Assembly: GCA_937867335.1 (NCBI GenBank)
Contig: CALMKX010000206.1
Location: 1-33,136 of the forward strand
Direction: 5' to 3'
Source of the DNA: an uncultured Acidobacteriota bacterium
GTDB taxonomy: Bacteria > Acidobacteriota > Thermoanaerobaculia > Multivoradales > SZUA-115
Length of the DNA stretch: 33,136 bases
Shown one piece after another: positions 5,452 to 28,586 of the stretch; within the stretch, counting starts at the first letter, position 1; every line of letters starts with the position of its first letter. The position numbers were made by a program, and so were the translations under genes. The notes beneath the pieces were generated by a model. It did no database searches, was not told where the DNA came from, and worked only from the letters and a program-made list of their open reading frames with translations.

Positions 5452-5482
5452 GTCGTCGAGTTCTCGTGGAGATGCCGGATTT

Positions 5483-5532
5483 CCGTTCGGTAGACTGCCG
5501 CGAAGTATACTCAAACATTGGATTTCGAACGG
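5483..5532. promoter_or_regulatory. Mirror-symmetric divergent promoter
   Basis: Inverted arms CCGTTCG (5483-5489) and CGAACGG (5526-5532) are exactly centred on the palindrome AGTATACT (5504-5511). Each strand therefore reads CGTTCG, 16 bases, TATACT. TATACT is a good -10 match on both strands, and the arms lie where -35 elements would be. Predicted leaders are about 40 bases to the ATG at 5558 (plus) and about 46 bases to the GTG at 5451 (minus). The two overlapping promoters could not easily be occupied by polymerase at once, so transcription of the two sides may be mutually exclusive or governed by one bound dimer. Confidence 0.5.
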
Positions 5533-12359: not shown

Positions 12360-15242
12360 ATGAACGAGGTCGATCCATCTCCCAGCGCGAGCGCACCGAG
12401 GGCCGAGCCCCCTTCGGGAGCGACGGGTGGCGCTCCTGAGGCACCGGCGCTATCGCGCCTGCGGCCCTTCCGCCGCATCGCCCTGCGCAGCATCCTCGGC
12501 CTGACGGTCGTTTCGGCCGTGCTCCTGGCCGGCGTGCTGCTGGTGATGAACACCGTCGGGCGGCGGCTGCTCATGAAGCAGTCCGCCCGGCGAATCGAGG
12601 AGTACGGCAACCGCAGCGTGGAGGCTCTGGCGGCCCGTACCCGCGAAGTGGCCGCCCTGGCCCGCACGGTGGCGAGAGTGAGCGAGGAGCTGCCCCGCGA
12701 CCGCCGGGTCCTGCTGGAGACTCTGCCGCGGCTGATCGACTTCCAGGGCGACCGCGGGGTGGCCGGTGGCGGCTACTGGCCCGAGCCGGGCTTCTTCGCG
12801 CAGGGAGTGGACCGCAGCAGCTTCTTCTGGGGCCGCAACGCCTCCGGCGAGCTCACGTTCCACGACGACTACAACGACCAGCTCGGCCCCGGCTACCGCA
12901 ACGAAGAATGGTACGTGCCGGCGCGATTCCTGCGCCCCGGAGCGGTGTTCTGGAGCGAGTCCTACACCGACCCCTACACCTACCAGCCGATGGTGACCTG
13001 TACCGCCACCTCCTACCGAGACGGCCACTTCGCCGGCGCCGCCACCATCGATGTCACCCTCGAGAGCCTGGCGGCGCTGACCGAGCGCTGGGGCCGTGAG
13101 GCCGGCGGCTACGCTTTCCTGGTCGACCGAAATAACCGTTTCCTCACCTATCCGCAAGTTTCGAAGATGTGGCACCAGGCGATCGACGACCGCGGCCGAA
13201 CCACCGAGGCGCCGCTGCTCGCCGCCGAGCTGGCCCGCACCGAGCCAAGCTTCCTGCCCCTGACCCGGGTAATGGAGGAGATGGACCTGGCGCTGCTGGG
13301 CAAGGCGAGGTCGGACGCGCGCTACGACCAGGAGCTGGTGGAGCACATCGATCGCGACAGCTACGCCATCACCCGGCCCGAGGCCGAGCTGATCGTGGCG
13401 GGGCTCGCCGATCCCCTGAGCGACCAGCACGAGCGCACCTACCTCGAGCGCACTCTCGCGCTCGCCCGCGACCCGCTGCTGGGCGAGGCTTCACACGGCT
13501 ACTTCTTCTACGTCCCGGGTTCTTATTGGAAGCTGGTGCTGGTGATGCCAGACGCCACCGCCGGAGCGGTCGCCTCGCGCATCTCGTGGCTGCTGGTGCT
13601 CGCTACGGCGCCGATCGTCCTCTTGATCCTCCTGGCCGCCTATGGCTTCACCGTGCGCTCGCTGATCCGCCCCGTCGCCGAGCTCGCGGCGGCAGCGAGC
13701 GCCGTGCAGGAGGGCCGGCTGGACGTGGAGGTCGAGAACCGGCCGCGCAACCAGGTGGGGGCTCTGGTCGTGGCCTTCAACCAGATGATCGCCCGCCTGC
13801 GAGTGTCCACCGGCCATCTGCGGGAGGCCAATCAGCGGCTGGAGCACTCGCTCGACCTGACCCGGGCGATCCTCGGCACCGTCCACGAGGGGCTGTTCCT
13901 GGTCGATGCCGACGGCCGGATCGAGCCCGGCTATTCCGCCGCCCTGACCCGGATCCTGGGCATCCAGGAGCTCGCCGGCCGGGACTTCCTCGAGCTCCTC
14001 GGAGGGCTGGTCTCGCCTCGCGATCAGTCGTTGGTGGAGCGGTTCCTGCGCATCCTCTTCGACGCCGACAAGACCGATGGCCTGGTGGCGAAGGCCAATC
14101 CCCTGCGCCAGGTGGAGGCCCGGCTTCCCAGCGAGGACGGCCTGCCGACCATCAAATACCTGGCCTTCCGTTTCGACCGCGTGCGCTACGGTGGGGCTCT
14201 CCGCCACGCCCTGGTCACCGTTTCGGACGTCACCTCGAAGGTGGAGCTGTCGCGCCGGCTGATGGAGTCCGAGCGCAAGATGCAAGACCAGAAAGAGCTG
14301 GTGGCCAGCGTGCTGCACGTCGAGCCGGCGATGCTCTCGGAGTTCATCGACGGCGTCGAAGCCGAGCTGGTGGCCACGTTGTCGCTGATCGCCCGCTGCC
14401 ACGAGGGCGGCGAGGGTCGCGGCCAGCCCTGCTACCAGGAGCTGCTGGGGCGGATCCTCAAGTCCGTGCACACCATCAAGGGCACGGCGTCGATGCTCGG
14501 CATCGAGTACTTCGCCACCACCGCCCACCACTTCGAGAGCCTGGTGCTCGCTCTTTCCGAGCGCGTCACCCTCTCCGCGCACAGCTTCGACGAGCTCGAG
14601 GACGAAGTGCGGAACATGCTCTCGCACCTGCGTGAAACCCGGGAGATCATCCGCCGCTTCAGCGACGGCCACGCGCCGGAGCGGGTGCGCAGCGACGTCA
14701 GCCTGCTCACCGACGTGCTCGACCGCTACGTCCAGGACCTCGCCCATCGGCACGGCCGGAGCGCGTCCTTCACGCTCTCGGCGGAGGACTCGTTGCGCAT
14801 CCCGTTCGGGCTCAAGACCTCGGTGCGCAACGTGCTGTCGCAACTGGTGCGCAATGCGGTGGTCCACGGCATCGAGCCGCCCGGCGAGCGGCTGCGGGCC
14901 AACAAGGCCCTGGTGGGCAAGGTGGAGGTTCGCCTGGCGCGGGTGAACGGCTGCCTCGAATTCGCCGTGCGCGACGACGGCCGCGGCATCGCGGAATCGC
15001 AGCTGGAGCCCACTCGCGCGGAGTGCTCTTGCGCCCAGAGCACCGCCGAGCGGATTTTCGAGATGGGCAGCACCTCAGCGAGCCAGCCAGGGCTGGACGC
15101 TGGCCGCGGCGTGGGGCTCACGGTGGTCAAGGACCTGGTGGAGAACCTGGGCGGCCGAGTCTCGGTGGATCAGAATCCCGGCCATTTCTGCGAGTTCCGG
15201 GTGGTGCTCCCGGTCGAGCCGCCCGGAGGGCTGCCTTCGTGA
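12360..15242 (+). CDS. Membrane-bound CheA-like kinase: dCache-HAMP-PAS-Hpt-HATPase
   Basis: A 960-residue protein combining a chemoreceptor front end with a CheA-like back end. A proline/alanine-rich cytoplasmic start precedes TM1 (about 42-63), a periplasmic dCache-type domain (75-400; FFWGRNASG, WYVPAR, YTDPYTYQPMVT, GAATIDVTLESL), TM2 (408-430) and HAMP (432-485). A PAS-like domain (495-630) and short coiled coil follow. An Hpt domain (655-765) carries His704 in SVHTIKGTASMLG. The ATPase (818-952) has N832 (LVRNAVVHG, as in CheA), D872/D873 (RDDGRGI) and GRGVGL. There is no SHExRxP-type HisKA and no CheW-like domain, so it probably phosphorylates its own Hpt and then the CheY-like receiver, whose GTG overlaps its stop by four bases. 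The ribosome binding site before 12360 is weak. Confidence 0.88.
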   Translation: MNEVDPSPSASAPRAEPPSGATGGAPEAPALSRLRPFRRIALRSILGLTVVSAVLLAGVLLVMNTVGRRLLMKQSARRIEEYGNRSVEALAARTREVAALARTVARVSEELPRDRRVLLETLPRLIDFQGDRGVAGGGYWPEPGFFAQGVDRSSFFWGRNASGELTFHDDYNDQLGPGYRNEEWYVPARFLRPGAVFWSESYTDPYTYQPMVTCTATSYRDGHFAGAATIDVTLESLAALTERWGREAGGYAFLVDRNNRFLTYPQVSKMWHQAIDDRGRTTEAPLLAAELARTEPSFLPLTRVMEEMDLALLGKARSDARYDQELVEHIDRDSYAITRPEAELIVAGLADPLSDQHERTYLERTLALARDPLLGEASHGYFFYVPGSYWKLVLVMPDATAGAVASRISWLLVLATAPIVLLILLAAYGFTVRSLIRPVAELAAAASAVQEGRLDVEVENRPRNQVGALVVAFNQMIARLRVSTGHLREANQRLEHSLDLTRAILGTVHEGLFLVDADGRIEPGYSAALTRILGIQELAGRDFLELLGGLVSPRDQSLVERFLRILFDADKTDGLVAKANPLRQVEARLPSEDGLPTIKYLAFRFDRVRYGGALRHALVTVSDVTSKVELSRRLMESERKMQDQKELVASVLHVEPAMLSEFIDGVEAELVATLSLIARCHEGGEGRGQPCYQELLGRILKSVHTIKGTASMLGIEYFATTAHHFESLVLALSERVTLSAHSFDELEDEVRNMLSHLRETREIIRRFSDGHAPERVRSDVSLLTDVLDRYVQDLAHRHGRSASFTLSAEDSLRIPFGLKTSVRNVLSQLVRNAVVHGIEPPGERLRANKALVGKVEVRLARVNGCLEFAVRDDGRGIAESQLEPTRAECSCAQSTAERIFEMGSTSASQPGLDAGRGVGLTVVKDLVENLGGRVSVDQNPGHFCEFRVVLPVEPPGGLPS

Positions 15243-15601
15243 AGCTGCTGGTGGTCGACGACGCCGCCACGGTGCGCGATCTGGTCAACCAGCAGCTCAA
15301 CGCCTCGGGGCTCGACGAAGTGATCTTCGCTCGCGACGGCTACGAGGCCCTGGAGCAGTTCCGGCGCCATCGACCGGAGCTGGTGCTGCTGGATCTCACC
15401 ATGCCGGAGATGGACGGGCTCACCTGCCTGTCGCAGATCAAGGCCATCGCTCCCCAAACGCAGGTGGCGGTGATCTCGGCCTTGACCGATGCCGAGACGG
15501 CGATCGAAGCGGTGGAGCGGGGTGCCAGCGAGTTCCTCTACAAGCCGTTCACCGGCGACGAGCTCAACACGGCCATCGAGCAGCTGCGTTCGCTGCTCTG
15601 A
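15239..15601 (+). CDS. CheY-like single-domain receiver coupled to the CheA-like kinase
   Basis: A 120-residue receiver with D7/D8, phospho-acceptor D52 (LLDLTMPEMDG), S80 and K102 (YKPF). The start is the GTG at 15239, which overlaps the TGA of the upstream kinase and is preceded by GGAGGG eight bases away; no other start fits. It has no output domain. Tight coupling marks it as the direct phospho-acceptor of the kinase at 12360-15242. It ends 18 bases before the stop of the convergent binding-protein gene, with no visible terminator between. Confidence 0.9.
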   Translation: MKLLVVDDAATVRDLVNQQLNASGLDEVIFARDGYEALEQFRRHRPELVLLDLTMPEMDGLTCLSQIKAIAPQTQVAVISALTDAETAIEAVERGASEFLYKPFTGDELNTAIEQLRSLL

Positions 15602-15619: not shown

Positions 15620-16708
15620 TCAGTGGGGCCGGGTGAAGTCCAGCCAGAACCGGTCCACCAGGGCCCGAGCCGGGCCGAGGCCGCGCACGATGTGGTAGGG
15701 CACGCCCTCGGGAAGCTGATAGGAGGGCCCGTCCCGTACTTCGGAATCGAGCAGGGGCAGAGCCGCCGCGACGGTCACCGCCGTGCGGTTCTCGTTGCTC
15801 AGCCGGGCGGCCACGGCGGGTTCGAGCAGGAAGTTCAAGAGCTCGGCGGCGGCTTCCTTGGCGTCGCTCGAGGCCAGGATCGAAAGGTTGTCGATCCACA
15901 GCAGATAGCCTTCCCGAGGCAGCGTGAAAGCGAGGTGCGGGGCACGAGCGGCCAGCCGCGCGAGGTCGCCGCTCCAGCCCTGGGCGAGCACCACCCTGCC
16001 GGCGGCGAGGCGATCGAGGTAACTCTCGCTGTCGATGGCGGCGAAGTTCTTCTCGCTCGCCTCGAGCAGGTCCCGGGCGCGGGCGAGTTCACCCGCGTCG
16101 GTGCTGTTGGGCGGCAGCCCGAGGTAGATCAGGGCCGCTCCGAGGGCGTCCCGGGGATCGTTGAGCAGGCTGATCTTGCCGCTTTGGGGGCGAGCCAGCC
16201 GAGGGTCGAAGAGATAGCCCCAGCTCGCGGGGGGCTCGGAGAAAGCGCGACGATCGTAGCCGAGGCCGGTGGTTCCCCAATAGAAGGGCGCGCTGTAGAG
16301 GAGCTCCGGGTCGTAGGCGGGGTTCAAGAACCGGCGGCCGATCTTGCCCAGGTTCGGGATGGCCGAGGCCGGCAGGCGGGCGAGGAGGCCCTTGGCGGCG
16401 GCCTCCTGGACCACCGAGCCGCTGGGCGTCCAGACATCCCAGCGCTCACCGGCCAGAAGCCGGCGCATCACTTCTTCGTTGGAGTTGATGAAGTCGATCT
16501 GGAGATGAACGCCGGTGCGCTTCTCGAAGTCGGCCGCCACTCCGGGAGTGATGTAGGCGGCCCAGGTGACGACCTTGAGGGAGCGCGGAGGAGCCGCCGC
16601 ACGCTTGCCAGCTGGGAGTTGCGGAACCGAGCCAGCTCCGCAACCCCAACCCAATGCCAACCCCCCGAAGAGGACCGCTTCGAGAGCGGTCCGAAGCCTT
16701 CTTCTCAA
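15620..16708 (-). CDS. PotD/PotF-like polyamine-binding periplasmic protein 1
   Basis: A 362-residue extracytoplasmic binding protein of the spermidine/putrescine family. The start is a TTG at 16708 with GGAAGG just upstream. A signal sequence ends at Cys23 (LGWGC), an imperfect lipobox, so it is probably a lipoprotein. Family features include VVTWAAYI near residue 47 (matching NWSDYI of PotF), the YWGTTGLGYD motif, and GWSGDL, which matches the PotF WAGD loop that contacts the ligand amine. No polyamine ABC permease or ATPase genes are in the window. It is the last gene of a minus-strand series behind the chemosensory operon, separated from the MHYT gene by 48 bases, so a sensory role is plausible (inference). 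Confidence 0.85.
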   Translation of the reverse strand: MRRRLRTALEAVLFGGLALGWGCGAGSVPQLPAGKRAAAPPRSLKVVTWAAYITPGVAADFEKRTGVHLQIDFINSNEEVMRRLLAGERWDVWTPSGSVVQEAAAKGLLARLPASAIPNLGKIGRRFLNPAYDPELLYSAPFYWGTTGLGYDRRAFSEPPASWGYLFDPRLARPQSGKISLLNDPRDALGAALIYLGLPPNSTDAGELARARDLLEASEKNFAAIDSESYLDRLAAGRVVLAQGWSGDLARLAARAPHLAFTLPREGYLLWIDNLSILASSDAKEAAAELLNFLLEPAVAARLSNENRTAVTVAAALPLLDSEVRDGPSYQLPEGVPYHIVRGLGPARALVDRFWLDFTRPH

Positions 16709-16756
16709 GCAGCCTTCCCCACGGCAAAGCGGCGGGGAAAGCGAGCTGCGAGAAGA

Positions 16757-17494
16757 TCAAGTCTCGGCAAGCTCGAGGTCCCTCTCCGCTCCGGTCAGAG
16801 AAACGAACAGTAGCACCGTTAGCAGGATCATGGAGGCGGCGAAGATATAAACCGCCATGCTCTCGGACTGGATCGCCGAGGCCGGGATCTCGATGTTCTT
16901 GTTGTTGGGAGTCATCTCGGCAGCCAGCATGCCGGTGTAGTGCATGCCGCACACCGCCGCGCCCATCACGAACGCGCTCGCGAAGCGCTGCCAGCGGCCG
17001 TGGAGGTTGAAGACGATCCACAGGGCCGCGGTGGCCGCCACCATGGCGATCACGATCGAGAGGATGAAGAGCCCCGTCTTGTAGCGCACGTCCATCGGCA
17101 TGATCATCGCCGCCATGCCGGTGTAGTGCATGGTGGCGACCCCGGTGCCGGTGACCAGGCCGGCGGCGATCAACTTGCCGAGGCTCACCTGCCCGCGGCC
17201 TACCACGAACAGCCCGAGAGCGGTCACGCCCACGGCGAGCAAGGCCGAAAGCACGGTGAGGGTGAAGTCGTAGGCCACTGGCAGGTCCATCTTGAGGGCC
17301 AGCATGCCGATGAAGTGCATCGACCAGATGGCACCACCACCCAGAGCGAAGGCAGCAAGGATCAGCCAGCCCCAGAAGGCCCCTCCCGTAGCCCGGCGCA
17401 GGCGATTCACAAGCTCGAGACAGCAGTAGGCGCCAAAGACAGAGACAACATAAGACAATAGAACAAGAGAGTAATCCCAACTTCCATGTTGCAT
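16757..17494 (-). CDS. Stand-alone MHYT-domain membrane sensor protein
   Basis: A 245-residue integral membrane protein with about seven helices. The signature motifs are spaced regularly: SMHFIGM, TMHYTGM and GMHYTGM. In MHYT domains the Met and His residues are proposed to bind copper and sense O2, CO or NO. There is no GGDEF, EAL or kinase domain, only a short charged tail, so the signal must pass through a partner. The ATG at 17494 is preferred over longer starts because GGGGAGG lies about nine bases upstream; the in-frame extension looks non-coding. It lies between two polyamine-binding-protein genes on the same strand. Confidence 0.87.
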   Translation of the reverse strand: MQHGSWDYSLVLLSYVVSVFGAYCCLELVNRLRRATGGAFWGWLILAAFALGGGAIWSMHFIGMLALKMDLPVAYDFTLTVLSALLAVGVTALGLFVVGRGQVSLGKLIAAGLVTGTGVATMHYTGMAAMIMPMDVRYKTGLFILSIVIAMVAATAALWIVFNLHGRWQRFASAFVMGAAVCGMHYTGMLAAEMTPNNKNIEIPASAIQSESMAVYIFAASMILLTVLLFVSLTGAERDLELAET

Positions 17495-17645
17495 GCCGTG
17501 TCCTCCCCTGAAAACGGGAAATCTTCTTCTGTGGCTGTTCCCAATTCTCATAGACGCTGCAGGAGGCTCGAGCGGGACAGAAAACGGCGAAAAAGTGAGG
17601 TCGTTGCGCAGCTGGAGGCTCCCCGCGGGCGCCATCCGCTGCGGC

Positions 17646-18728
17646 TCACCGGCTCTTGCCCCGCACCCGGCTCCACAGTTGGTCGTAGAGCCCGTTGTCG
17701 CTGCCCAGGTTCTTGATCAGGCTCAGCCGGGCGAGCGTCTCGCGGCTGGGGTAGATCACCGGGTTGGCGCGGTCCTGGACGTCGAGGAAGGGCTCGGCGG
17801 CCCGGTTGGGGGAGGCGGTGTGGTTGTAGTTGGCCAGGCGGGCGCCCACCTGCGGATCGAGCAGGAAGTTGAGGAAGCGCTCGGCGAGGTCCCGGTGCGG
17901 GGCGCGGGCCGGGATCGCCAGGTTGTCCACCCAGTAGTTGCCGCCCTCTCGCGGCACGAAGTAGCTGGCGCTCGGCAGCTCCTCCATGCCCCTGAGAGCA
18001 TCGCCGTTGTAGGAGACCACCAGATCCGCCTCTCCTTTGACCAGCTTGGTCTTCGACTCGACGCCACCGAAGAAGCCCACGGAGCGCTGGCTGGTTTGCA
18101 CCAGCAGATCCTCCGCCCGGGCGAGCGCGGCCTTGTCGGTGGTGCTGGGGTCGTAGCCGAGGTAGAGCAGGGCGGGGCCGATCATCTCCCGCTTGGAGTC
18201 CATCAGGGTGAAGCGGCCGCGCTGGCGGGTCGGGTCGAAGACCAGGCCCCAGCTGCGCTCGCTCTCCGGCACCGGGGCGCGGGCGAAGATGCCGGTGGTG
18301 CCCCAGAGGTAGGGAACTGTGAAGAGGTTGCCGGGGTCGTAGGGAGGGTTGAGGAAATTCGTGGCGATGTTGGCCACGTTGGGCAGATTGGCCTTGCGCA
18401 GGGGAGCCAGCAGGTGGCGATCGATCAGGGTGGGAATCACGAAGTCCGAGGGCACCACCACGTCGTAGCGGGCGTCGCCGCCCCGCTCGAGCTCGGCGAT
18501 CATGCTCTCGAGGTCCTCGTAGCTCGTGAGATTCACCTTGCAGCCGGTCTGGCGGGAGAAATCGTCCAGGATGTCCTGAGGGATGTACTCCGACCAGTTG
18601 TACAGGTTGAGTTCGCTGCCCGAGACGGCAGGGCGGGGTTGCCCCGGATCGGAGCCGCATCCGGCCTGCGTGAGGAGCATGGATGCTAAGACAGAAGATG
18701 CGAAGAGTCTTTTCATGGCAAATACCAA
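17646..18728 (-). CDS. PotD/PotF-like polyamine-binding periplasmic protein 2
   Basis: A 360-residue paralogue of the binding protein at 15620-16708. Family features are LYNWSEYIPQDILDDF, VVPSDFVI, NPPYDPGNLFTVPYLWGTTGI, SYNGDA (PotF-type ligand Asp) and FLNFLLDPQVGARLANYN. A signal sequence ends in LTQAGC, an acceptable lipoprotein cleavage site. The start is taken as TTG at 18728-18726 because GGAGG lies six bases upstream; an in-frame ATG at 18716 has its nearest GGAGG 18 bases away and would give 356 residues. It follows cheA by 117 bases on the same strand, and no permease genes are present. Ligand specificity cannot be settled from sequence. Confidence 0.87.
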   Translation of the reverse strand: MVFAMKRLFASSVLASMLLTQAGCGSDPGQPRPAVSGSELNLYNWSEYIPQDILDDFSRQTGCKVNLTSYEDLESMIAELERGGDARYDVVVPSDFVIPTLIDRHLLAPLRKANLPNVANIATNFLNPPYDPGNLFTVPYLWGTTGIFARAPVPESERSWGLVFDPTRQRGRFTLMDSKREMIGPALLYLGYDPSTTDKAALARAEDLLVQTSQRSVGFFGGVESKTKLVKGEADLVVSYNGDALRGMEELPSASYFVPREGGNYWVDNLAIPARAPHRDLAERFLNFLLDPQVGARLANYNHTASPNRAAEPFLDVQDRANPVIYPSRETLARLSLIKNLGSDNGLYDQLWSRVRGKSR

Positions 18729-18845: not shown

Positions 18846-21578
18846 TCAGGCGGGGTTGGTGGGGGGCAGGTCGGAGCTGGCGGCTTCCTGGCGACGCCGG
18901 CTGGCCCTTTCGGTCAGCCGCGCCAGAGTGTCCACCAGGACCTCGGGGTGGTACGGCTTCACCAGGTAGTCCGAAGCCCCCAGCTCGAAAGCGCGATCGC
19001 GGTGTTTCTGGCCGGCACGAGAGGTGAGCATCACCACCGGCAAGGCCCGGTAGGCGCCCTGACTGCGCAGAGTGGTGAGCAGCTCGTAGCCGTCGAGGCG
19101 TGGCATCTCGATGTCGACCAGGAGGGCGTCTGGCGCTGCCGTGAGGCTCGCCAGGATCTCCAGCGCCTCCATGCCGTCGCGGGCGGCGATCGGCTTCCAG
19201 CCTTGGGCAGCGAGCAGGCTGGAGAGCACCTTGCGCACCGACAGGGAGTCGTCCACCACCATCACGGTGAGTGCCCGCGCCTTTGCGGCACCGGGCCTAC
19301 TCTCGGCGGCCGCTTCCGGCGCGGCGAAGAGGCGGTCCGGGTCGGCGATCAGCACCACCGAGCCGTCGCCCAGGAGGGTGGCGCCGAGGAAGCCAGGAAC
19401 CCGGGGCAAGAGCGAGCCCAGGCTCTTGACCACCACCTCCTGAGCATCGCCCAGGCGGCTCACCACGGCCACCAGGCGGCTGCCGCCGGAGCGCAGCACC
19501 AGGGCCGGCGCCCGCTCGGCCAGCCGGGAGCCGTGCGACTCGAAGCCCAGGGCCTCGCCGAGGGAGAGCAGCGGCAGGGTGTCCTCCCCGACCCGCATCA
19601 CGGGCTCCCCGTCGGCCTGCTCGAGAGCCGAGGGCTCGAAGCGCAGGACCCGATCCACAGCCGGCAGGGGTAGCGCCAGCCGCTGGGAGCCCACTTCCAC
19701 CAGGAGCACCTTCAGCACCGCCAGTTGCACCGGCAGGCGCAGGATGAAGCGAGTGCCGAGCTGCGGTGTGGACTCCACCCGCACCGACCCGCGCAGGCTC
19801 TCCACGGTGGAGCGCACCACGTCCAGGCCCACGCCGCGCCCCGAGACCTCGTCGACGCTTGTCGCGGTGGAGAAGCCGGGCAGGAAGATCCACTGCGCCG
19901 CCTCGGCCCAGGTAGCGCCCTCGCCATAGCCACCCGGCGCCAGGCCTCGCTGTGCGGCCACAGCGCGGATCGCCTCGAGGTCGAGGCCGGCGCCGTCGTC
20001 GGCGATCTCGAGCACCACCTCGGAGCCTTGCTGCCGGGCCACGATGGAGATCCGTCCCTGCTCCGGCTTGCCCAGGGCCCGGCGCAGCCCTGGCGCTTCC
20101 AGGCCGTGGTCGACGGCGTTGCGCACCAGGTGCAGGAGCGGGTCGGCGAGCACGTCGAGGATCTGCTTGTCGAGGCCCACGCCTTCGCCTTCGATCACCA
20201 GCTCGGCGAGCTTGGCGCGTTCGCGGGCGGTGACCCGCACCGTCCTTTGCAGCCGGGCCGAGAGCGAGGCCAGCGGCACCATGCGGATGCCGAAGAGGCG
20301 ATCCTGGAGCTCGCCGGTCAGCCGCCTCAGTCGGGTGAGCGAGGCTTCGAAATCCCCCACGCTACCGCCGAGCTCTCCGCCCAGGGTGGTCAGGTCGCTC
20401 GAGGCTTCGGTCAGGGCACGGGAGAGCTGGTGGAACTCGGTGTAGCGGTCGAGTTCGAGCTCGTCGAAATCGGCCGCGCGGGGAGAGCTCATCCAGGCGC
20501 CGGGAAGGCGGAAGCTACCACTGCCCCCGGCTCTCAACGCCGACACCTCGTAGTCCGTCTCCAGGCGGGCGGCGATACCGCGCAACCGGCCCGAGGTGAG
20601 CTTCACTTCCGCCACCTGGCGGCCGAGCTCCTGATAGCGGCGCTCGAAGACGGAGCGGGCCACCACCAGCTCGGAGACCAAGCGCACCAGCTCGTCCAGG
20701 CCGGCAACCGGTACCCTCAGCCGCTCGCCCGCGGCACGGGCCCCGGTGGCCGCCTCGGCGGATTCCTCGGCCAGGGCGGCTGCACGGGCCGAGAGAGCCG
20801 GAGCCGCTACCGGCAGGGCGCGGGAGTAGCGCTCTTCGAAGGAAGCCAGCAACTCCTCGGTGGCGGCGGAGACGCTCGGCCCGGGCCGGCGCACCAGGTC
20901 TTCGAGGGCGTCGTTGGTCTCACTGAGCAGAGCCGCCGCCTCGGGGTCGAGCTCCTGGCTGCCGTCGTAGAGGCGGTCGAGCAGGTCTTCCATGCGGTGG
21001 GCGAGCGAGGCCACGGTGGCAGCGCCCACCATCGCGGCGGCCCCTTTGACGGTGTGGATCGAGCGCCGAACCTGCTGCAGGGTCTCGCGGTCCGCCTTCT
21101 CTTCGCTGGCGAGCCGCCGCAGCAAAGCGGCGGCTCGCTCGAGGTGCTCCGTGCTCTCCTCCTTGAAAGTGTCCCAGAGATCGTCGCCCTCGAGCTCGGG
21201 GCCGCCGCCCCAGAGGGCCGGCTCGGCCGGCTGGCTGTGGGGCGGGTCCGTCTCGCTCTGCGCCATCGGAAAGGCAGCGTCCAGGGCGGCCAGGGTCTCA
21301 CCCAGGCGCGCTTTTTCGGCCTCACCGAAGCTCGCCCTGCCGCTGAGCACTGCCTCGAGCACCGCCTCGCCCTCCCCGGCCTCGGCGGCGAGATGGGCCA
21401 GGCCGAGCATGGCTCCGGCCCCTTTGATGCTGTGCAGGGCGCGATGAGCCTCCTCCAGAGCCGGCACCAGGCCGGCCTCCTCGAGGTCGGGGGCGAGCAA
21501 GCGGCGGATCCGTGGCAGGTAGCCGCCCACTTCGGCGGCGAAGCCGGCCAAGATCTCCGGGCCAAACGGCAGCTCCAT
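18846..21578 (-). CDS. cheA: CheA histidine kinase, ChpA/PixL-type, with two Hpt domains and a C-terminal receiver
   Basis: A 910-residue CheA. Hpt 1 (1-100) carries His49 in LHSIKGAGAML and Hpt 2 (130-230) carries His175 in IHTVKGAAAM. A dimerisation region and linker (about 290-430) precede the ATPase (430-615), with N487 (HLVRNAVDHG), D527/D528 (ADDGAGL), the CheA motif GFSTA (568-572) and GRGVGLDVV (580-588). A CheW-like domain (615-750) follows, then a receiver (770-892) with D776/D777, acceptor D822 (LVDIEMP) and K874 (LVKPY). Multiple Hpts plus a fused receiver are typical of type IV pilus (ChpA) and phototaxis (PixL) systems. It starts 25 bases after the chemoreceptor stop. No cheB or cheR is present in the window. 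Confidence 0.93.
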   Translation of the reverse strand: MELPFGPEILAGFAAEVGGYLPRIRRLLAPDLEEAGLVPALEEAHRALHSIKGAGAMLGLAHLAAEAGEGEAVLEAVLSGRASFGEAEKARLGETLAALDAAFPMAQSETDPPHSQPAEPALWGGGPELEGDDLWDTFKEESTEHLERAAALLRRLASEEKADRETLQQVRRSIHTVKGAAAMVGAATVASLAHRMEDLLDRLYDGSQELDPEAAALLSETNDALEDLVRRPGPSVSAATEELLASFEERYSRALPVAAPALSARAAALAEESAEAATGARAAGERLRVPVAGLDELVRLVSELVVARSVFERRYQELGRQVAEVKLTSGRLRGIAARLETDYEVSALRAGGSGSFRLPGAWMSSPRAADFDELELDRYTEFHQLSRALTEASSDLTTLGGELGGSVGDFEASLTRLRRLTGELQDRLFGIRMVPLASLSARLQRTVRVTARERAKLAELVIEGEGVGLDKQILDVLADPLLHLVRNAVDHGLEAPGLRRALGKPEQGRISIVARQQGSEVVLEIADDGAGLDLEAIRAVAAQRGLAPGGYGEGATWAEAAQWIFLPGFSTATSVDEVSGRGVGLDVVRSTVESLRGSVRVESTPQLGTRFILRLPVQLAVLKVLLVEVGSQRLALPLPAVDRVLRFEPSALEQADGEPVMRVGEDTLPLLSLGEALGFESHGSRLAERAPALVLRSGGSRLVAVVSRLGDAQEVVVKSLGSLLPRVPGFLGATLLGDGSVVLIADPDRLFAAPEAAAESRPGAAKARALTVMVVDDSLSVRKVLSSLLAAQGWKPIAARDGMEALEILASLTAAPDALLVDIEMPRLDGYELLTTLRSQGAYRALPVVMLTSRAGQKHRDRAFELGASDYLVKPYHPEVLVDTLARLTERASRRRQEAASSDLPPTNPA

Positions 21579-21603: not shown

Positions 21604-23784
21604 TCAGGCGGCCTGCTCGGGCAGACGGAACCGCTGCATCGAGGAGGCCAGCTCGTCGGCCAGCTGGGCCAGGTAGCGCATCGAAGCCGCTGCCTTCTGG
21701 GCGCCGCCCGCCGCCTGGGTGGTGACCTGGGAGATCTGGTTCATCGCCGCCACGGCGCCTTCCGAGCCCCGGGCCTGCTCGCTCGAAGCCTGAGAGATCG
21801 AGTGGATCAGCTGCGCGAGCTGGTTGGAGACCGCCTCGATCTGCCCCAGGGCCTGGCCGGCTTCCTGGGCGACGTTCGAGCCCTGCACCACTTCCTGGGT
21901 GGTGCCCTCCATGGCGGCCACGGCCTCGGAGGTTTCAGTCTGAATCGTCTTCAGCAGCGAAGCGATGGTTTTCGAGGCTTCCGCCGAGCGTTCGGCCAGG
22001 CGTTCCACTTCTTCGGCCACCACCGCGAAGCCTCGGCCCGCTTCCCCGGCCGCGGCGGCCTGGATGGAAGCGTTCAAGGCCAGCATGCTGGTGCGGTCGG
22101 CGATGTCGGAAATCAGCTGCACGATCTCGCCGATCTCCTGCGAGCTCTCGCCCAGACGCTTGATCCGCCGCGAGGTCTCCTGCACCTGGTTGCGGATGTT
22201 GTTCATGCCGGTCATGGTGCGGCCCACGGCCGAGGCACCGCCACGGGCGCTCTTCAGGGCTTCTTGGGCCACCTGGGAGGCGGAGGCGGCGTTCTGCGAC
22301 ACCTGTTGGATGGAGCTGGCCATGGCTTCGATGACGGCGCTCGTCTGGGCGATCTTGAGCGCCTGCTGCTGGCTGCCGCGGGCGAGCAGTTCGGTGGTCT
22401 CCTGCACCCGACCGGCGGTCGAGTTCACCTCGCGGCTGGTGCTCTGCACCTGGCGGATGATGCCCTGCAGCTCGGTGATCATGTAGTTGAAGGCGTCGGC
22501 GATGGCTCCCGTCATGTCCGGCGTGACTTCGGCCTGAGCCGTCAGGTTGCCCTGGGCCACGTCGCTCACCTCGGAGAGCAGCTTCATGATCGCCGCCTGG
22601 ATCGAGTCGCGTTCTTCCTGGCTCTGCATCAGGCTGCGGGTGTTGTCGAGCATGTTGTTGAGGTAGCCGGCCGCGTTGCCGAGCTCGTCGCCCGAGAAGG
22701 CGCGGGCGCGGGTGTCGAGGCGGCCGCCGCCCACCTGGCGGAACACGCGGGTGAGCTCGGCGATCTGGTAGACGATGCCGCGGGCGATGGCGAGGGAGCC
22801 GAAAAGGCCGGCGGCGGCGAGCAGGCTGGACAGCCAGAGCCGGCGGTTGCGGGCGGCCGACGTCTGGTTGACACGGGCGAGCAGCAGCTGGTCCGCCTGG
22901 TCGCGCAGAGTCTCCGAGAGCTCGAACAGCTTGCCCAAGGCATCGCCCCCCTGGCGCAGGTGGTCCTCGAGTCGCACGGAGGGCGTGGTGGCTTCGGCGA
23001 TTCCGGCGCGGGTGGCCTCGGCGAAGCTCGCCGCTTCGCGCAGAGCACCCGAGGCAGCACCGGCCATCTGATCCTGCAGCCGGCCATTGGCCCTGAAGGC
23101 GGCGTTGAGGCCCTTCTGGAACTCCTCGACCGAGCGCTGGATATCGCTCACATCGAGCAGCAGGGCGGCGCGCTCGGCGCTCGTGGGAGCGTTCGGTGCC
23201 ACCAGCAGGCGCGCGCCGTCGGCACGCAGGCGGGAGGCCGCCTGGGTGGCGCGGGGAATCTCCACCAGCAAGCTCGAGATCAAGTAGTAGGAGTCGAGGT
23301 CCGGGTCGAGAATCAGGTTGGAGCCGTCGCCTACGCGGCGGATCAGAGCCGTGGCCGCGCGCAAGGAGTTGTCGAGAGCGGCGAGTCGCCCGTCGGCGGA
23401 AGTCTCGGCGGGCAAGGCCGCGAACGCTTTCCAGGCGCGATCGAGGTCCGCCTGGGCTTCGCTGGTGCCGAGAGTCCGGCCGAGCCGCAGCTCGCGGTCG
23501 GCGACCTGCGCCAAGGCCTGGTCCACCCGCTTCTGCAGCTCGGCATCTTCCGGCGAGCTCCCGGCCGCGGCCTTCGAGCGCAGCTCCAGCAGGCCGTGAA
23601 AAGCCTCCAGGACGGGCTTCAGGTAGCTCAAGCCCTGCCGTTCCTTGGCGGCGAACTGGATGTTGGTGTTGCTGGCGGTGAGGAACTGGAAGGTCAGGAG
23701 GGCGATAGGGATCACGAGCAGGAACACCACCAGGGCGAGCTTGATGGGGATTCGGTTCACCAACTGCTTCAGCTGTTGCAGCAT
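21604..23784 (-). CDS. pilJ: PilJ-type methyl-accepting chemotaxis protein
   Basis: A 726-residue transmembrane chemoreceptor. TM1 is at 14-35, a large helical periplasmic domain at 36-312 and TM2 at 315-338. Two HAMP-like segments (about 338-388 and 395-447) precede a long signalling coiled coil. The hairpin tip spans about 567-605 ([31 protein letters not shown]). The continuation [21 protein letters not shown] closely resembles Pseudomonas PilJ. The N-terminal periplasmic stretch [10 protein letters not shown] also recalls PilJ. It probably signals to the CheA encoded next, through the CheW encoded just before it. The ligand is unknown; the periplasmic domain could meet the polyamine-binding proteins encoded downstream (inference). 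Confidence 0.92.
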
Positions 23785-23833: not shown

Positions 23834-24499
23834 CTAGCGAATGGCACTCCAATGAAGCTCCATGTCCTGGCTCATCCCGGCCAGGAGTCGATCCGCCGCC
23901 AGCACGGTGAGGTTTCCGTCCTCCGCCGTCTGGGTCGCCGCCGCGAAGGGGGTGTCGATCGCTCGGGTCGTCTCCGACCTCGCGGGCGTGGCCAGGCGCA
24001 GCCCGAGTACCCGCTCCACCAGGCAGCCGGCGGCCCAACTCCCAGACTCCACCACCAGCATGCGAGCCGTTCGCAGCTCGGAAAGCGGCTGGCCGGTGAG
24101 GAAATCCCCCAGGTCCACCACGGCCAGGATCTCGCCGCGCAGATTGCACAGGCCGTGGAGCCAGCGCGGGGCCCTCGGAATGGGGGCGAGGCCCGGCGCG
24201 TCAACGATCTCGGCCACCGCCTCGAGATTGCAGGCGAAGCGGCCTCCCGGGGTCTGGACGGCGATCAGGCGGAAGGCCTCGACGGGTTCCGCCTGGGTCG
24301 CTGGCTGCGTCGGCTCGGCTGCTGGAAGCGCCGCCGCGAACTCCTCGGGCGCGGCTCTCTCGCTCGCCACCCCTTGCGGGGCGGGCGAGGAAGCCTCCGG
24401 AGGCGCAACGGTGGGGCGCTCGCCCCAGGCCAGGCGAAGGGACTCGAGCAGCTCCTCGAGGGGATCGGATCCGCCTCCCCCTGAAAACGGTTGGGACAT
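23834..24499 (-). CDS. cheW: CheW-family coupling protein (PilI/PixI-like)
   Basis: A 221-residue protein whose C-terminal part (about 75-215) is a CheW domain: FRLIAVQTPGGRFACNLEAVAEIV, IPRAPRWLHGLCNLRGEILAVVDL, and a second barrel ending near DRLLAG. The first 75 residues are Pro/Ala/Glu-rich and probably disordered; CheW proteins are normally about 150-170 residues, so this extension is unusual. The ribosome binding site before the ATG at 24499 is weak. It lies 32 bases after the pilH-like gene and 49 bases before pilJ, as expected for the linker between that receptor and CheA. Confidence 0.9.
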   Translation of the reverse strand: MSQPFSGGGGSDPLEELLESLRLAWGERPTVAPPEASSPAPQGVASERAAPEEFAAALPAAEPTQPATQAEPVEAFRLIAVQTPGGRFACNLEAVAEIVDAPGLAPIPRAPRWLHGLCNLRGEILAVVDLGDFLTGQPLSELRTARMLVVESGSWAAGCLVERVLGLRLATPARSETTRAIDTPFAAATQTAEDGNLTVLAADRLLAGMSQDMELHWSAIR

Positions 24500-24531: not shown

Positions 24532-24906
24532 TCAGGCAGCCGCCAGCTGCCGGCGCAGGGTCGCCAGGAGCGAGTTAGCGTCGAACGGCTTGGTCACGTA
24601 GTCGTCGGCTCCCTGCTTGAGGCCCCAGAAGCGATCGCTGTCCTGGTTCTTGCTGGTCAGCATCACCACCTTGATCGCCTTGGTCTCGGCCGCGGTCTTG
24701 AGCTGCCGGCAGAGCTGGAAGCCGTTCTGGCCTGGCAGCACCACGTCCAACAGCACCAGGCTGGGGCGCTCGGTCTGGATTTTCGCCATGGCCTCGTCGC
24801 CATCGGCTGCGGTGAGCAGGCGGAAGCCCGAGCTTTGCAGGGCCGTCTGGATCAGCGCTCGCTCCGTGGGGCTGTCTTCCACGATCAGAATGGTTTCACC
24901 GGCCAT
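24532..24906 (-). CDS. pilH: PilH-type single-domain response regulator
   Basis: A 124-residue receiver with E10/D11, acceptor D54 (LLDVVLPGQNG), T84 region and KPF near the end. The stretches IVEDSPTERA and DSDRFWGLKQGADDYVTKPF match PilH (IVDDSPTE, ETDKVWGKRQGARDYLTKP). In Pil-Chp systems PilH tunes pilus retraction and acts as a phosphate sink. GGAGAGGG lies just upstream of the ATG. The gene sits between the PATAN gene (13-base gap) and cheW. Confidence 0.92.
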   Translation of the reverse strand: MAGETILIVEDSPTERALIQTALQSSGFRLLTAADGDEAMAKIQTERPSLVLLDVVLPGQNGFQLCRQLKTAAETKAIKVVMLTSKNQDSDRFWGLKQGADDYVTKPFDANSLLATLRRQLAAA

Positions 24907-24919
24907 GGGAATCCCTCTC

Positions 24920-25780
24920 CTAGATGACTTTTTCAGTGGCCCGCTCGGTCGCCAGGGCGTTCTCGAAGTCCTGCTCGATGGCGGCGAAGGCGGAGCGCCA
25001 CTCGCTGCGCCGGAGCTCGGTCGAGAAGCTCTGGGCGAGCTCTTCGAACCAGGCGCGGGCGAGGGTCAACACGCCGCGCCCGACATGCAACAAATAGCGA
25101 GCTGCTCGGTCTGGTTCCCGAGCATACTCGCGAACCAGGTTGCGGGGAAGGTCGAGGGAGAGCCGCTGGTTGCGCAGCTCGAACAGCTCGAGCGCCGGAT
25201 GGCTGCCCTTCAAGGCCGGCAGCAGGAAATCCGGCCGCCAGCTGTCGCGTCGCTCGGGCAGGTTCTTGGCGACGAAATCCAGGGTCTCGTTGGCGAGCTC
25301 CTCCAGCACCGCGAGCGCCTGAGCTCCCTGGCGCCGCTCGGCGAGCTCGGCGAGCCGGGCCACCTGGCGATCGAGCGTCGAGAGCAGGGCGATCAGGGCG
25401 TCCTCGGAAAGCTCGCGAGAAGCCGAGCTCGACGAGCGGCCGGTCATCGCGGTGGACCGGCTGCCTCGCCGGGCGACCGGGTCGTCGGGGTGGGAGGCCT
25501 TCCAGAGGAGGGAGGTCAGGGTGGACTGGACCGTCTGCGGAGACTCCGCCGGCGCCGCGTCGATGCGGAACACTCCCTCGGTCCAGGTCAACAGCTCGAT
25601 CGCGGCGGGATCTCCAGCGAGATCTCCCATCGAGGCGTGGCGGATGCGGCCTCCTTCGAGAATTAGGGTGCCGCTGCCACTATCCCCCCAGACCATCAAC
25701 CTCGCCTTGCGGCGCTCGCCGCAGAGCATTTGCAGAAGACCGGCCAGGCTGGCGTCGCTCAGATCCCCTTCGATGCTCAT
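24920..25780 (-). CDS. Stand-alone PATAN (DUF4388) domain protein
   Basis: A 286-residue protein. Residues 1-100 form a DUF4388/PATAN domain: IEGDLSDASLAGLLQMLC, GTLILEGGRIRHASMGDLAGDPAAIELLTWTEG (cited in parts) and FRID. The remainder is mostly helical with no recognised domain (arginine-rich RYLLHVGRGVLTLAR near the end). In cyanobacteria PATAN is fused to a CheY-like receiver (PixG, TaxP1), and such proteins bind the pilus extension motor PilB. Here the PATAN module is separate but lies directly next to the PilG-type receiver gene, seven bases after its stop. It is likely the output adaptor of the chemosensory pathway (inference). Confidence 0.8.
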   Translation of the reverse strand: MSIEGDLSDASLAGLLQMLCGERRKARLMVWGDSGSGTLILEGGRIRHASMGDLAGDPAAIELLTWTEGVFRIDAAPAESPQTVQSTLTSLLWKASHPDDPVARRGSRSTAMTGRSSSSASRELSEDALIALLSTLDRQVARLAELAERRQGAQALAVLEELANETLDFVAKNLPERRDSWRPDFLLPALKGSHPALELFELRNQRLSLDLPRNLVREYAREPDRAARYLLHVGRGVLTLARAWFEELAQSFSTELRRSEWRSAFAAIEQDFENALATERATEKVI

Positions 25781-25787
25781 CCGAGGC

Positions 25788-26675
25788 TCAGCGTCCCTCG
25801 GCCAGGGCGACCCGCGCGAAGCGAGTCACGGCGTTGCGCAAGGTCAAGGCGTCGACCGGCTTGGTGAGATAGTCCACCGCTCCGGCCAGGCGTCCTCTCA
25901 CCTTGTCGACGAAGCCGTCGCGGCCGGAGAGCATCACCACCGGCAATTGCTTGCCCTTGGCGTGGGTACGGATGATCTTGCACACCTGGTAGCCGTCGAG
26001 GTGGGGCAGGCCGATGTCGAGGAAGACCAGCTGGAAGTCCTCGTGGGCGATGCGCGACAAGGCCTCGATTCCGCTCTCGACCGCGATCACTTCGCAGCCG
26101 AGGCGCTCCAGAGCGATAGACACCAGCCGTCGCACCGTGGCGCTGTCGTCCACCACCAGGATCTTGGTGCGCGGCGGCTCGCCGGCCGGTGCCGGCGGCT
26201 CGATGGCGGGTTGCGCCGGCTCGGCCGGGGGCACGGAGCTCAGCGCGGCCCGCTCCGCGGGGCGAGCCGGCAAGGTCAGGAGTTGAGCTCCTCCCCGGCC
26301 TCCATGGGTCTCCACGGAGGGCTCCTCGGTCGCCTGGGTCGCCTCGAGGTCCGCCTCCTCCTCGGCGCTTTCCAGGCCGAGAGTCGGGGGCGGCGGAGCC
26401 GAAGCGGCGTCCTCCCAGGCCTCCACCCGGGAAATCCAGGTCCGGGCCAGAGAGTTGCCGGGGTCGAGGTAGAGCACCTGGTGCAGGCAGGTCTGAACGT
26501 CCTCGCGGCTCTCCACCACCGAAGCCAGGAGGAGCCAGCCGGAGGCACGCTTGGGCTCGAGCTTCAAGGCCTGCCAGAGCAGGCGGCGAGCCGTGCCCTT
26601 GTCTCCCTGCCGGGCGCTACGGAGAGCTTCACTCAGGAGGTGGTCCGCGTCTTCTCTCGAAATGGAGACTTGCAT
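25788..26675 (-). CDS. pilG: PilG-type receiver with N-terminal TPR-like domain
   Basis: A 295-residue protein. Residues 1-90 are helical and TPR-like (ARRLLWQALKLEPKRASGWLLLASV, with a second unit HQVLYLDPGNSLARTWI). A Pro/Glu-rich linker (90-168) leads to a receiver (170-293) with D176/D177, acceptor D220 (FLDIGLPHLDG) and K272 (LTKPV). The stretch MLSGRDGFVDKVRGRLAGAVDYLTKP closely follows PilG (MLSSKDGLFDKAKGRIVGS). PilG activates pilus extension in Pseudomonas. PilG itself is receiver-only at about 135 residues, so the TPR-like extension is an addition that may recruit partners. AGGACAGG precedes the ATG. It starts the compact six-gene chemosensory run. Confidence 0.9.
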   Translation of the reverse strand: MQVSISREDADHLLSEALRSARQGDKGTARRLLWQALKLEPKRASGWLLLASVVESREDVQTCLHQVLYLDPGNSLARTWISRVEAWEDAASAPPPPTLGLESAEEEADLEATQATEEPSVETHGGRGGAQLLTLPARPAERAALSSVPPAEPAQPAIEPPAPAGEPPRTKILVVDDSATVRRLVSIALERLGCEVIAVESGIEALSRIAHEDFQLVFLDIGLPHLDGYQVCKIIRTHAKGKQLPVVMLSGRDGFVDKVRGRLAGAVDYLTKPVDALTLRNAVTRFARVALAEGR

Positions 26676-27036: not shown

Positions 27037-28551
27037 CTAGGAGGCGTCGAAGGCGAACGAGGCGGCCTCGAGCATCAAGCCCGCGAGGCTCCTCGGCGGC
27101 GGAGCCAGGCGCCGCCAGCGCCCGACGGGTGTCAGCTCGGGGCTCGCCGTTTCGTCTTCGAGACCGCCCAGTACCAGCAATGCCGTGGCCGCGGGCGCTT
27201 CACGGCCCAGCCGCGCAAGCAGTGTGTCGGCAGCGCCGGCGAGAGGCTGGTCGCCCAACCAGACCACCAACGCGGCCAGACGCTCTGCAGCCGGCAGGGG
27301 CGGCGAGCCCTTGGCCATGGGCCAGGCCTGGATCAACAAGGTTCCGCCTTCCAGGTGGTGACGTAGCTCGAGCAGGCCCGGCGTCGTCCTCGCCCGCGCC
27401 CCGAGGCCGCTGCCGAGGTCGTCGAACCACCGTTCCAGGCGGTCCCACACGGACTCCGCCACCACCATCACTACCGCCAACGGGTCGAGGCGGAGCCCGC
27501 GGAACAGTGCTTCCTGGACCAGCTCGCGCAGAGCCAGGTCGAGCTCCTCGGGAGTTTCCTCCTCTTGCGGCGCTGCTTCCAGGGCTTCGGTCGCCCCTCC
27601 CACCAGCGGGCTCGCCGCTGCTGCGGCCGGCTGCACCGGCTGGCCCACCACCAACCCGCCGGTCTCGACCAGCCAGGCCACGGTGAGATCCAGGCGTGCA
27701 CGGGCCGCCAGCTGACCCTTGCGAAGCGTCTCCAGCGTCGAGGTGGCGCGAGTCACCGCGTCGAGCACCGCGGTGATCGGCAGGGCGGTGAAGTCCTCCG
27801 GGATCGGGGCCAGGGTGCCCAGCCGGAGTTCCCGGTCCGGCTGGGGTAGGAAGGGCCGGCGCCGCTCAAGCTCGTCGTTCACCCAGGCGGCCTCGATCAT
27901 CAGCGAATGGAGGGCCACCGGTGCGCCACCCGAAAGCGCGACCTCGTGCTCGCGGAAGCGGAACGTGCCGTCCGCGAGCTCCAGGAGCTCCGTGACCGCT
28001 TCGGACCCGCTCAATCCCCCGAGACGCGCCGAGACCACCTGGCCCTGCACCAGGGCGAGCAGGCCCATGGCCTCCGGAGCGAGAATCTCGAGCTCGCCCG
28101 TCTTCTGGGTCAGCTCGAGAGTCTGCAGCACCTCGGCCAGGGTGTTCTGGGCGATTCTCCCCTGCAGCTGGCCGTGGAACGCCGGCCGGCGGGAGATCAA
28201 GCCCTCCGCCCTCGCCAGCAGCTCGTCCGGGGAGAAAGGCTTGGCGAGGAAGTCGTCGGCCCCCATCCGGATGCCCCGCGTGCGATTCGACGAGTCGCCG
28301 ATCGCCGACAGCATCAGGACCGGCAGGCTCTGCGTCGAGGCGGTATGCCGCAGCTGCTCGAGCACCTCCCAGCCCGACAGTCCGGGCATCATCACGTCGA
28401 GGATCATCAGGTCGGCAGGAAGCCGGGCCGCCAGAGCGATCGCTTCCTGAGGGTTCAGCGTGGTCGTCACGCTGTGGCCCGCGGTCTCGAAGATCACCCG
28501 CAAGAGGCCGAGAATGTCGGGGTCGTCATCGACAAGGAGTACCCTGGCCAT
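27037..28551 (-). CDS. Receiver-PATAN (DUF4388) response regulator
   Basis: A 504-residue protein from the ATG at 28551 (a TTG five codons upstream is possible; neither has a strong ribosome binding site). The receiver (1-118) has D8-D10, acceptor D52 (ILDVMMPGLSG), S82 and K104 (LAKPFSPDEL). A PATAN/DUF4388 domain follows (about 125-215; FHGQLQGRIAQNTLAEVLQTLELTQKTG in parts, GQVVSARLGGLSGSEAVTELL, GTFRF). Residues 240-504 form an Ala/Leu-rich region with no recognised motif. Cyanobacterial PixG/TaxP1 have PATAN first and receiver last, so this order is reversed. It lies 361 bases before the pilG-like gene on the same strand and probably belongs to the same system. Confidence 0.85.
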   Translation of the reverse strand: MARVLLVDDDPDILGLLRVIFETAGHSVTTTLNPQEAIALAARLPADLMILDVMMPGLSGWEVLEQLRHTASTQSLPVLMLSAIGDSSNRTRGIRMGADDFLAKPFSPDELLARAEGLISRRPAFHGQLQGRIAQNTLAEVLQTLELTQKTGELEILAPEAMGLLALVQGQVVSARLGGLSGSEAVTELLELADGTFRFREHEVALSGGAPVALHSLMIEAAWVNDELERRRPFLPQPDRELRLGTLAPIPEDFTALPITAVLDAVTRATSTLETLRKGQLAARARLDLTVAWLVETGGLVVGQPVQPAAAAASPLVGGATEALEAAPQEEETPEELDLALRELVQEALFRGLRLDPLAVVMVVAESVWDRLERWFDDLGSGLGARARTTPGLLELRHHLEGGTLLIQAWPMAKGSPPLPAAERLAALVVWLGDQPLAGAADTLLARLGREAPAATALLVLGGLEDETASPELTPVGRWRRLAPPPRSLAGLMLEAASFAFDAS

Positions 28552-28561
28552 TGTTTTAGAT

Positions 28562-28586
28562 CTCAATACTCAATAAACGATGTCAA
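28562..28586 (-). promoter_or_regulatory. Promoter region of REC-PATAN gene with tandem 7-bp repeat
   Basis: On the minus strand a perfect TTGACA (28586-28581) is followed by a tandem direct repeat TATTGAG-TATTGAG (28575-28562), about ten bases from the ATG at 28551. No consensus -10 lies at 17 bases (AGATCT is there). If the TTGACA is a true -35, the transcript would have a very short leader, in keeping with the lack of a ribosome binding site. The repeat could instead be a binding site. Confidence 0.35.

Follow-up and report, generated by a model that had tools for sequence, protein, structure and literature searches.

Behind the cheA gene of an uncultured Acidobacteriota bacterium lie two binding proteins of a transporter family and a membrane protein with MHYT motifs, and the question raised by this locus is what such proteins do beside a chemotaxis cluster. 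The window, by which we mean the whole stretch of 33,136 nucleotides that was analysed, is one entire contig (CALMKX010000206.1 of GCA_937867335.1; contig C206 of the genome labelled G000), and G000 is a draft genome of 5.56 Mb that is 97% complete; labels of the form G0xx and L0xx denote the genomes and loci of relatives. We favour, with modest confidence, the view that the first solute-binding protein (SBP1), and probably the second (SBP2), bring an amine signal to a receptor of the cluster and so to CheA, and that the MHYT protein is a separate sensor of the same array. Gene calls and Pfam matches bear out the preliminary description of two PotD/PotF-like proteins and a stand-alone MHYT protein behind cheA on the same strand, and its outer limit at 18728 is the TTG start of SBP1:

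17646..18728, minus strand: SBP1, solitary PotD-like solute-binding protein (TTG start with strong Shine-Dalgarno (SD) sequence; alternative ATG at 18716)
16757..17494, minus strand: stand-alone MHYT membrane protein (three MHYT motifs, seven predicted helices, without output domain)
15620..16708, minus strand: SBP2, solitary PotF/PotD-like solute-binding protein, divergent (TTG start)

The motif AAGGAGG stands six bases before the TTG of SBP1, and a strong SD also precedes the ATG of the MHYT gene at 17494 (upstream sequence GGGGAGGA). The intergenic gaps measure 117 bp (cheA-SBP1), 151 bp (SBP1-MHYT) and 48 bp (MHYT-SBP2), sizes with which a single transcript for cheA and the trio is possible. 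A sigma-70 scan returned no promoters, and the four terminator-like matches (1.8 expected) include none between the genes. Part of the training sequence of the gene caller was in the wrong frame, and the stretch 4810-5493 was mis-called.

PotD-family proteins inside and outside transporter operons

The neighbourhoods of PotD-family proteins, taken as 8 kb, were surveyed at 55 places, which comprise all 48 places of a phylum sample of 396 genomes and some further places from the class; hits in G041:C220, G041:C162, G010:C61, G053, G057 and G132 appear in the search tables and lie outside this survey. A potA, potB or potC homologue was present at 51 of the 55 places, and none of these 51 had a CheA or MCP homologue within 8 kb. 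The four places without a pot gene are the window's two, one on contig C68 of G022 and one at a contig end (L256, G172:C80), the last having no detected neighbours and standing outside the Fisher counts. All three on adequate contigs, which represent two loci, lie inside che clusters (Fisher's test of pot-linkage against che, p 4e-5, or 7e-4 with the window counted once, a guide only since the genomes are related). Two independent che-linked loci are few; we nevertheless read SBP1 and SBP2 as sensory because the 51 pot-linked places lack CheA and MCP homologues within 8 kb and the three others on adequate contigs are all in che clusters.

The same reading is supported by G022, a genome of the same order and another family. 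In a maximum-likelihood tree of 65 sequences, SBP1 and the SBP of G022:C68 were joined with support 96/92, and this sister of SBP1 makes up residues 742-1098 of a 1098-aa frame without internal stop, in which a dCache domain (below the Pfam cut-off), HAMP and MCP signalling domains are followed, from residue 742, by a lipoprotein-type signal peptide and then the SBP. The operon runs REC, CheW, CheA, REC, MCP-SBP, so that the sister of SBP1 is fused in frame to a chemoreceptor within a che operon. The group around these two proteins also holds the PotD of G000 itself, and SBP2 stands elsewhere in the tree, its placement unsure owing to a long branch. SBP1 and SBP2 were described at first as paralogous; they do belong to the same family, with 35% identity, but the tree does not pair them, and a recent tandem duplication as their origin is rejected in view of this identity and of the separate tree positions. 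The tree label "potlinked" was set on all non-che rows and is wrong at least for L014, where no pot genes were found, and unproven for L007, where only a potA-like ATPase was found.

Could the two proteins simply serve a transporter encoded elsewhere? Complete potA, potB, potC and potD genes stand in a row on contig C200 of G000, next to genes for 4-aminobutyrate transaminase and succinate-semialdehyde dehydrogenase. The window contig holds no match to BPD_transp_1 anywhere, and no potA/B/C homologue was found within 8 kb of SBP1 or SBP2, in agreement with the early statement that genes of an ATP-binding cassette (ABC) transporter are missing nearby. A separate potABC lacking its own binding protein had been named as the case that would speak against a sensory role, and such an orphan transporter is ruled out by the complete set on C200; since this potABCD has its own PotD, the transporter is not short of a binding protein and SBP1 and SBP2 are surplus to it. 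We regard it as unlikely that both are accessory deliverers of polyamines to the distant PotABC, with an incidental place behind cheA. Such a role would suit a genome whose potABC comes with a PotD closely related to SBP1 (48% identity), as well as the largely kept ligand residues of both proteins and the solitary PotD genes that are common in Psychrobacter, but the potABC is already equipped, SBP1 groups with the receptor-fused SBP and not with the PotD of G000, and no other PotD without pot linkage was found on an adequate contig in the phylum sample.

What the two proteins may bind was approached through their family and pocket. Both match SBP_bac_8 above the Pfam cut-off (1.6e-15 for SBP1 and 3.3e-27 for SBP2) and have PotD/PotF-type proteins as closest solved relatives (best E 5.6e-55 and 2.4e-44, respectively). 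The NCBIfam PotD/PotF equivalog cut-offs were not reached by SBP1 (173.8 of 582 bits) or SBP2 (149.6 of 636 bits), nor by the transporter-linked PotD of G000 (189.1 of 582 bits). The PotD pocket numbering used here, and the pairing of NspS with PotD positions, are in part assumed. In an alignment with segments of E. coli PotD and PotF, W34, E36, Y37, S83, E171, D232, W255 and D257 are retained in SBP1, whose residue 229 is a Y like that of NspS, and SBP2 retains W34, Y37, S83, W229, D232, W255 and D257; the set W34, Y37, S83, E171, W229, D232, W255 and D257 is found in both with the conservative changes W229Y (SBP1) and E171D (SBP2). SBP1 furthermore equals NspS at five shared positions, W41, Y233, D236, W261 and D263 (NspS residues as given in PMC9993111). 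Because most pocket residues are retained, SBP1 and SBP2 appear to be functional binding proteins for polyamines or amines like them, which together with the potABCD of G000 is a further ground for the sensory reading. A Cys follows a hydrophobic stretch in each protein, yet both fail a PROSITE-type lipobox pattern that is passed by the PotD of G000, the PotD of G022 and the fused SBP of G022; the lipoprotein nature suggested at first for SBP1 and SBP2 was not substantiated.

The stand-alone MHYT protein

The second component of the trio matches the Pfam MHYT family at 3e-45 in three stretches and is the only MHYT locus in G000. Its structure model has seven membrane-length helices (predicted local distance difference test score, pLDDT, 85.8), and the motifs at residues 59-62, 122-125 and 184-187 fall close to helix ends (helices 2, 4 and 6); in each of the three, Met and His do not vary among four stand-alone homologues. 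A Foldseek search with the model returned nothing at E <= 0.001. CoxC, which senses carbon monoxide (CO) with copper via its MHYT domain, is described as having three MHYT motifs at the ends of helices 2, 4 and 6 (PMC11347149). The window protein shares this arrangement and the seven helices of CoxC/MHYT proteins, but unlike CoxC it is without an output domain; the same source also refers to MHYT proteins of a single domain. Because its three motifs are placed as in CoxC and are conserved, the MHYT protein is probably a copper/gas sensor.

Across the class and phylum tables, stand-alone MHYT frames (fewer than 350 codons around a full-length match) occur only in G000, G006, G036 and G003, and the remaining matches sit in frames of 457 or more codons, which suggests fusions. 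The stand-alone MHYT gene of G036 starts 5 nt after the REC gene of an MCP-CheA-CheW-DUF4388-REC cluster, a second case of such a gene with a che cluster, and this speaks for the place of the MHYT protein in our reading. A literature search pairing MHYT with a solute-binding protein and a chemoreceptor found no paper.

The chemoreceptor and its neighbours as possible docking partners

On the minus strand the genes run REC-DUF4388, REC, DUF4388, REC, CheW, MCP and CheA-REC, followed by SBP1, MHYT and SBP2, the chemotaxis part being composed as follows:

27037..28566, minus strand: REC-DUF4388 protein, head of the che operon
25788..26675, minus strand: response regulator with N-terminal extension
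24920..25780, minus strand: DUF4388 protein
24532..24906, minus strand: single-domain response regulator
23834..24499, minus strand: CheW-like protein
21604..23784, minus strand: chemoreceptor (MCP) with HAMP (all-helical ectodomain, NasR-like fold match)
18846..21578, minus strand: CheA (Hpt-dimerisation-HATPase-CheW-REC)

The receptor model is poor overall (mean pLDDT 57.7) and usable for the ectodomain only, which spans residues from about 28 to 307, is all helical and has pLDDT mostly of 65-87. Compared with NasR chain 4akk_A, the ectodomain gave Z 21.4 over 260 residues with a root-mean-square deviation of 3.3, and the next match gave Z 14.0; helical bundles often reach Z values of up to about 14, so that NasR is the one match of note. 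Residues E48, R69, W118, D162, G190 and R205 are invariant across five receptor homologues. The model suggests that the ectodomain is a NIT-like sensor of nitrate type rather than a PilJ domain. The receptor was originally called PilJ, a label without Pfam support: the window receptor has no NIT or PilJ match in Pfam, and PilJ is missing up to E 5 for this receptor and among the 25 families listed for its four homologues, although a fold-level relation of the ectodomain to PilJ may exist.

Related che operons carry various neighbours. In the orthologous operon of G022 (L155, 6355-7914), the place after cheA that the trio takes in the window is held by an M20-type peptidase whose start resembles a signal peptide, and the operon of G044 is flanked by two proteins without Pfam match (L157, 1071-2096 and 9268-10494). 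In G006 (L160, 2829-4919), a relative with a different ectodomain, a Porin_O_P protein and a PBP_like_2 binding protein lie between the MCP and REC-CheW-CheA; judged by its family match, the latter is another type of binding protein that stands solitary within a che operon. The H-kinase_dim profile, with matches in four of seven genomes, missed visible che clusters and is too insensitive for counts of CheA.

A second receptor lies on the other side of the trio and converges with it:

12360..15242, plus strand: dCache-HAMP-Hpt-HATPase kinase, convergent, the alternative partner of the SBPs
15239..15601, plus strand: response regulator after the dCache kinase (its end and that of SBP2 are 18 bp apart)

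We think it decidedly unlikely that SBP2, SBP1 or both act on this kinase and its regulator and not on the chemoreceptor. The short distance from SBP2 to the end of the regulator gene is in keeping with such a partnership, as is the observation that sensor kinases activated by an SBP usually neighbour its gene (PMC11113362), and the receptor to which the G022 SBP is fused has a dCache ectodomain weakly like that of the kinase (24% over 286 columns, E 0.003). This similarity is near noise, however, and the kinase lies on the opposite strand in convergent orientation, so that it does not form one operon with the trio. Adjoining the kinase, a 7TMR-DISM hybrid kinase (8955-12200) that also has REC and Hpt domains contributes to a dense plus-strand signalling block. 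Elsewhere in the window, an apiosidase-like glycoside hydrolase with DUF5060 (595-3261) and an RHS-type protein whose C-terminus matches Ntox16 (32142-33005) were noted.

A proposed sensory role for the trio and its meaning

Several observations weigh against a sensory role for the trio. G000 alone among the 148 genomes of the class has the complete trio; SBP1-like (E <= 1e-25), SBP2-like (E <= 1e-8) and MHYT-like (E <= 1e-15) proteins occur in 8, 9 and 7 of them, respectively, and the SBP1-like and MHYT-like sets share only G000 and G007, the latter having a pot-linked SBP and, on a different contig, its MHYT in a longer kinase-type frame. The two other genomes of G000's family have neither an SBP1-like nor an MHYT-like protein. 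The che core with the same receptor type lacks the trio in G022:C75, G040 (where the locus is cut inside cheA), G044 and G033, and the stand-alone MHYT genes of G006 and G003, two of the four, are not near che genes. The pockets carry the changes Y85F and D168S in SBP1 (S at 168 is also found in the pot-linked PotD of G000) and E36A, E171D and Y85S in SBP2, and the SBP_bac_8 protein PA0602 of P. aeruginosa, for which spermidine and putrescine had been predicted as ligands, bound gamma-aminobutyric acid instead and, among three amines tried, only ethylenediamine (PMC11113362). The NasR-like ectodomain may bind a ligand of its own, a small ion sensed directly beside or instead of the SBP input. 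In other phyla, the SBP stands with neither pot nor che genes at 65 of 80 loci, mostly in Psychrobacter, and because such solitary PotD genes are common, the solitary state alone is no sign of a sensor role. The fusion in G022, finally, was read from a draft genome, implies an unusual topology and contains both a lipoprotein signal peptide in its interior and an SD-like stretch there, and it is possible that a stop codon ahead of the SBP was lost or misread; whether this is a true fusion or a stop lost or misread at the receptor's normal end, the sister of SBP1 is, by the sequence, directly behind a chemoreceptor. Psychrobacter PotD-like genes that stand alone include L014 9920-11068, with no pot or che homologue in the fetched stretch.

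The missing trio in orthologous che operons and the gaps of 117 and 151 bp would also fit an unrelated insertion, assembled by chance behind cheA and without shared function, but we find this very improbable, given that the SBP-receptor (G022) and MHYT-che (G036) neighbourhoods recur independently. The sensory input first proposed is partly supported: the pairwise links recur in relatives, where the sister of SBP1 is receptor-fused and an MHYT gene abuts a che cluster, but the trio itself is not conserved.

Under the sensory reading that we favour, SBP1, and probably SBP2, would be periplasmic or membrane-tethered proteins recruited for sensing from the PotD/PotF family. Once bound to a polyamine or similar amine, the SBP would dock on a receptor ectodomain in the cluster, most likely that of the co-directional chemoreceptor and otherwise that of the dCache kinase, and thereby alter CheA activity and response-regulator phosphorylation in a direction that we can only infer. 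The MHYT protein, being without an output domain, would act as a separate membrane sensor of copper, CO or O2 for the same array through some presumed output route. A bolder version, which we hold to be highly doubtful, would place two outboard sensors on the array: a polyamine SBP, in some lineages joined covalently to the receptor C-terminus via an internal signal peptide that adds a membrane anchor, and, as a subunit of the array, an MHYT sensor of copper or gas without output domain.

Previous studies provide parallels for each part. In E. coli, the specific spermidine response is lost when potD is deleted but not when potA is, and Trg is required (PMC6194112); a PotD-family protein thus feeds a chemoreceptor independently of transport, as proposed here, although E. 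coli PotD belongs to the PotABCD transporter, whereas the window has two solitary SBPs behind cheA and a receptor with NasR-like ectodomain. In V. cholerae and S. meliloti, the solitary PotD-like NspS presents an amine to the membrane signalling receptor MbaA (PMC9993111). As in the window, a solitary PotD-like SBP there lies next to a membrane receptor, but MbaA is a GGDEF-EAL enzyme while the output here would be the CheA pathway, and no GGDEF or EAL match, as expected of an adjacent HAMP-GGDEF-EAL receptor, was found in a scan of 19 reading frames of the window. The combination of REC, CheW, MCP, CheA-REC and REC-DUF4388 in one cluster is shared with the Pil-Chp and Frz chemosensory systems, but the window has no PilJ domain by Pfam and adds accessory SBPs and MHYT. 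The arrangement of the parts is new, and the working principle of each is already known.

The move of binding proteins from transport to sensing has mostly been inferred from few proteobacterial cases. Within a single order, judging from gene neighbourhoods, a subclade of the PotD family appears to have moved in two families out of the pot operon and into che operons, in one instance as an in-frame receptor extension, and the receptor-fused SBP makes the switch from transport to sensing directly testable. If the reading proposed here is true, it would also give a cellular context to an MHYT protein without an output domain.

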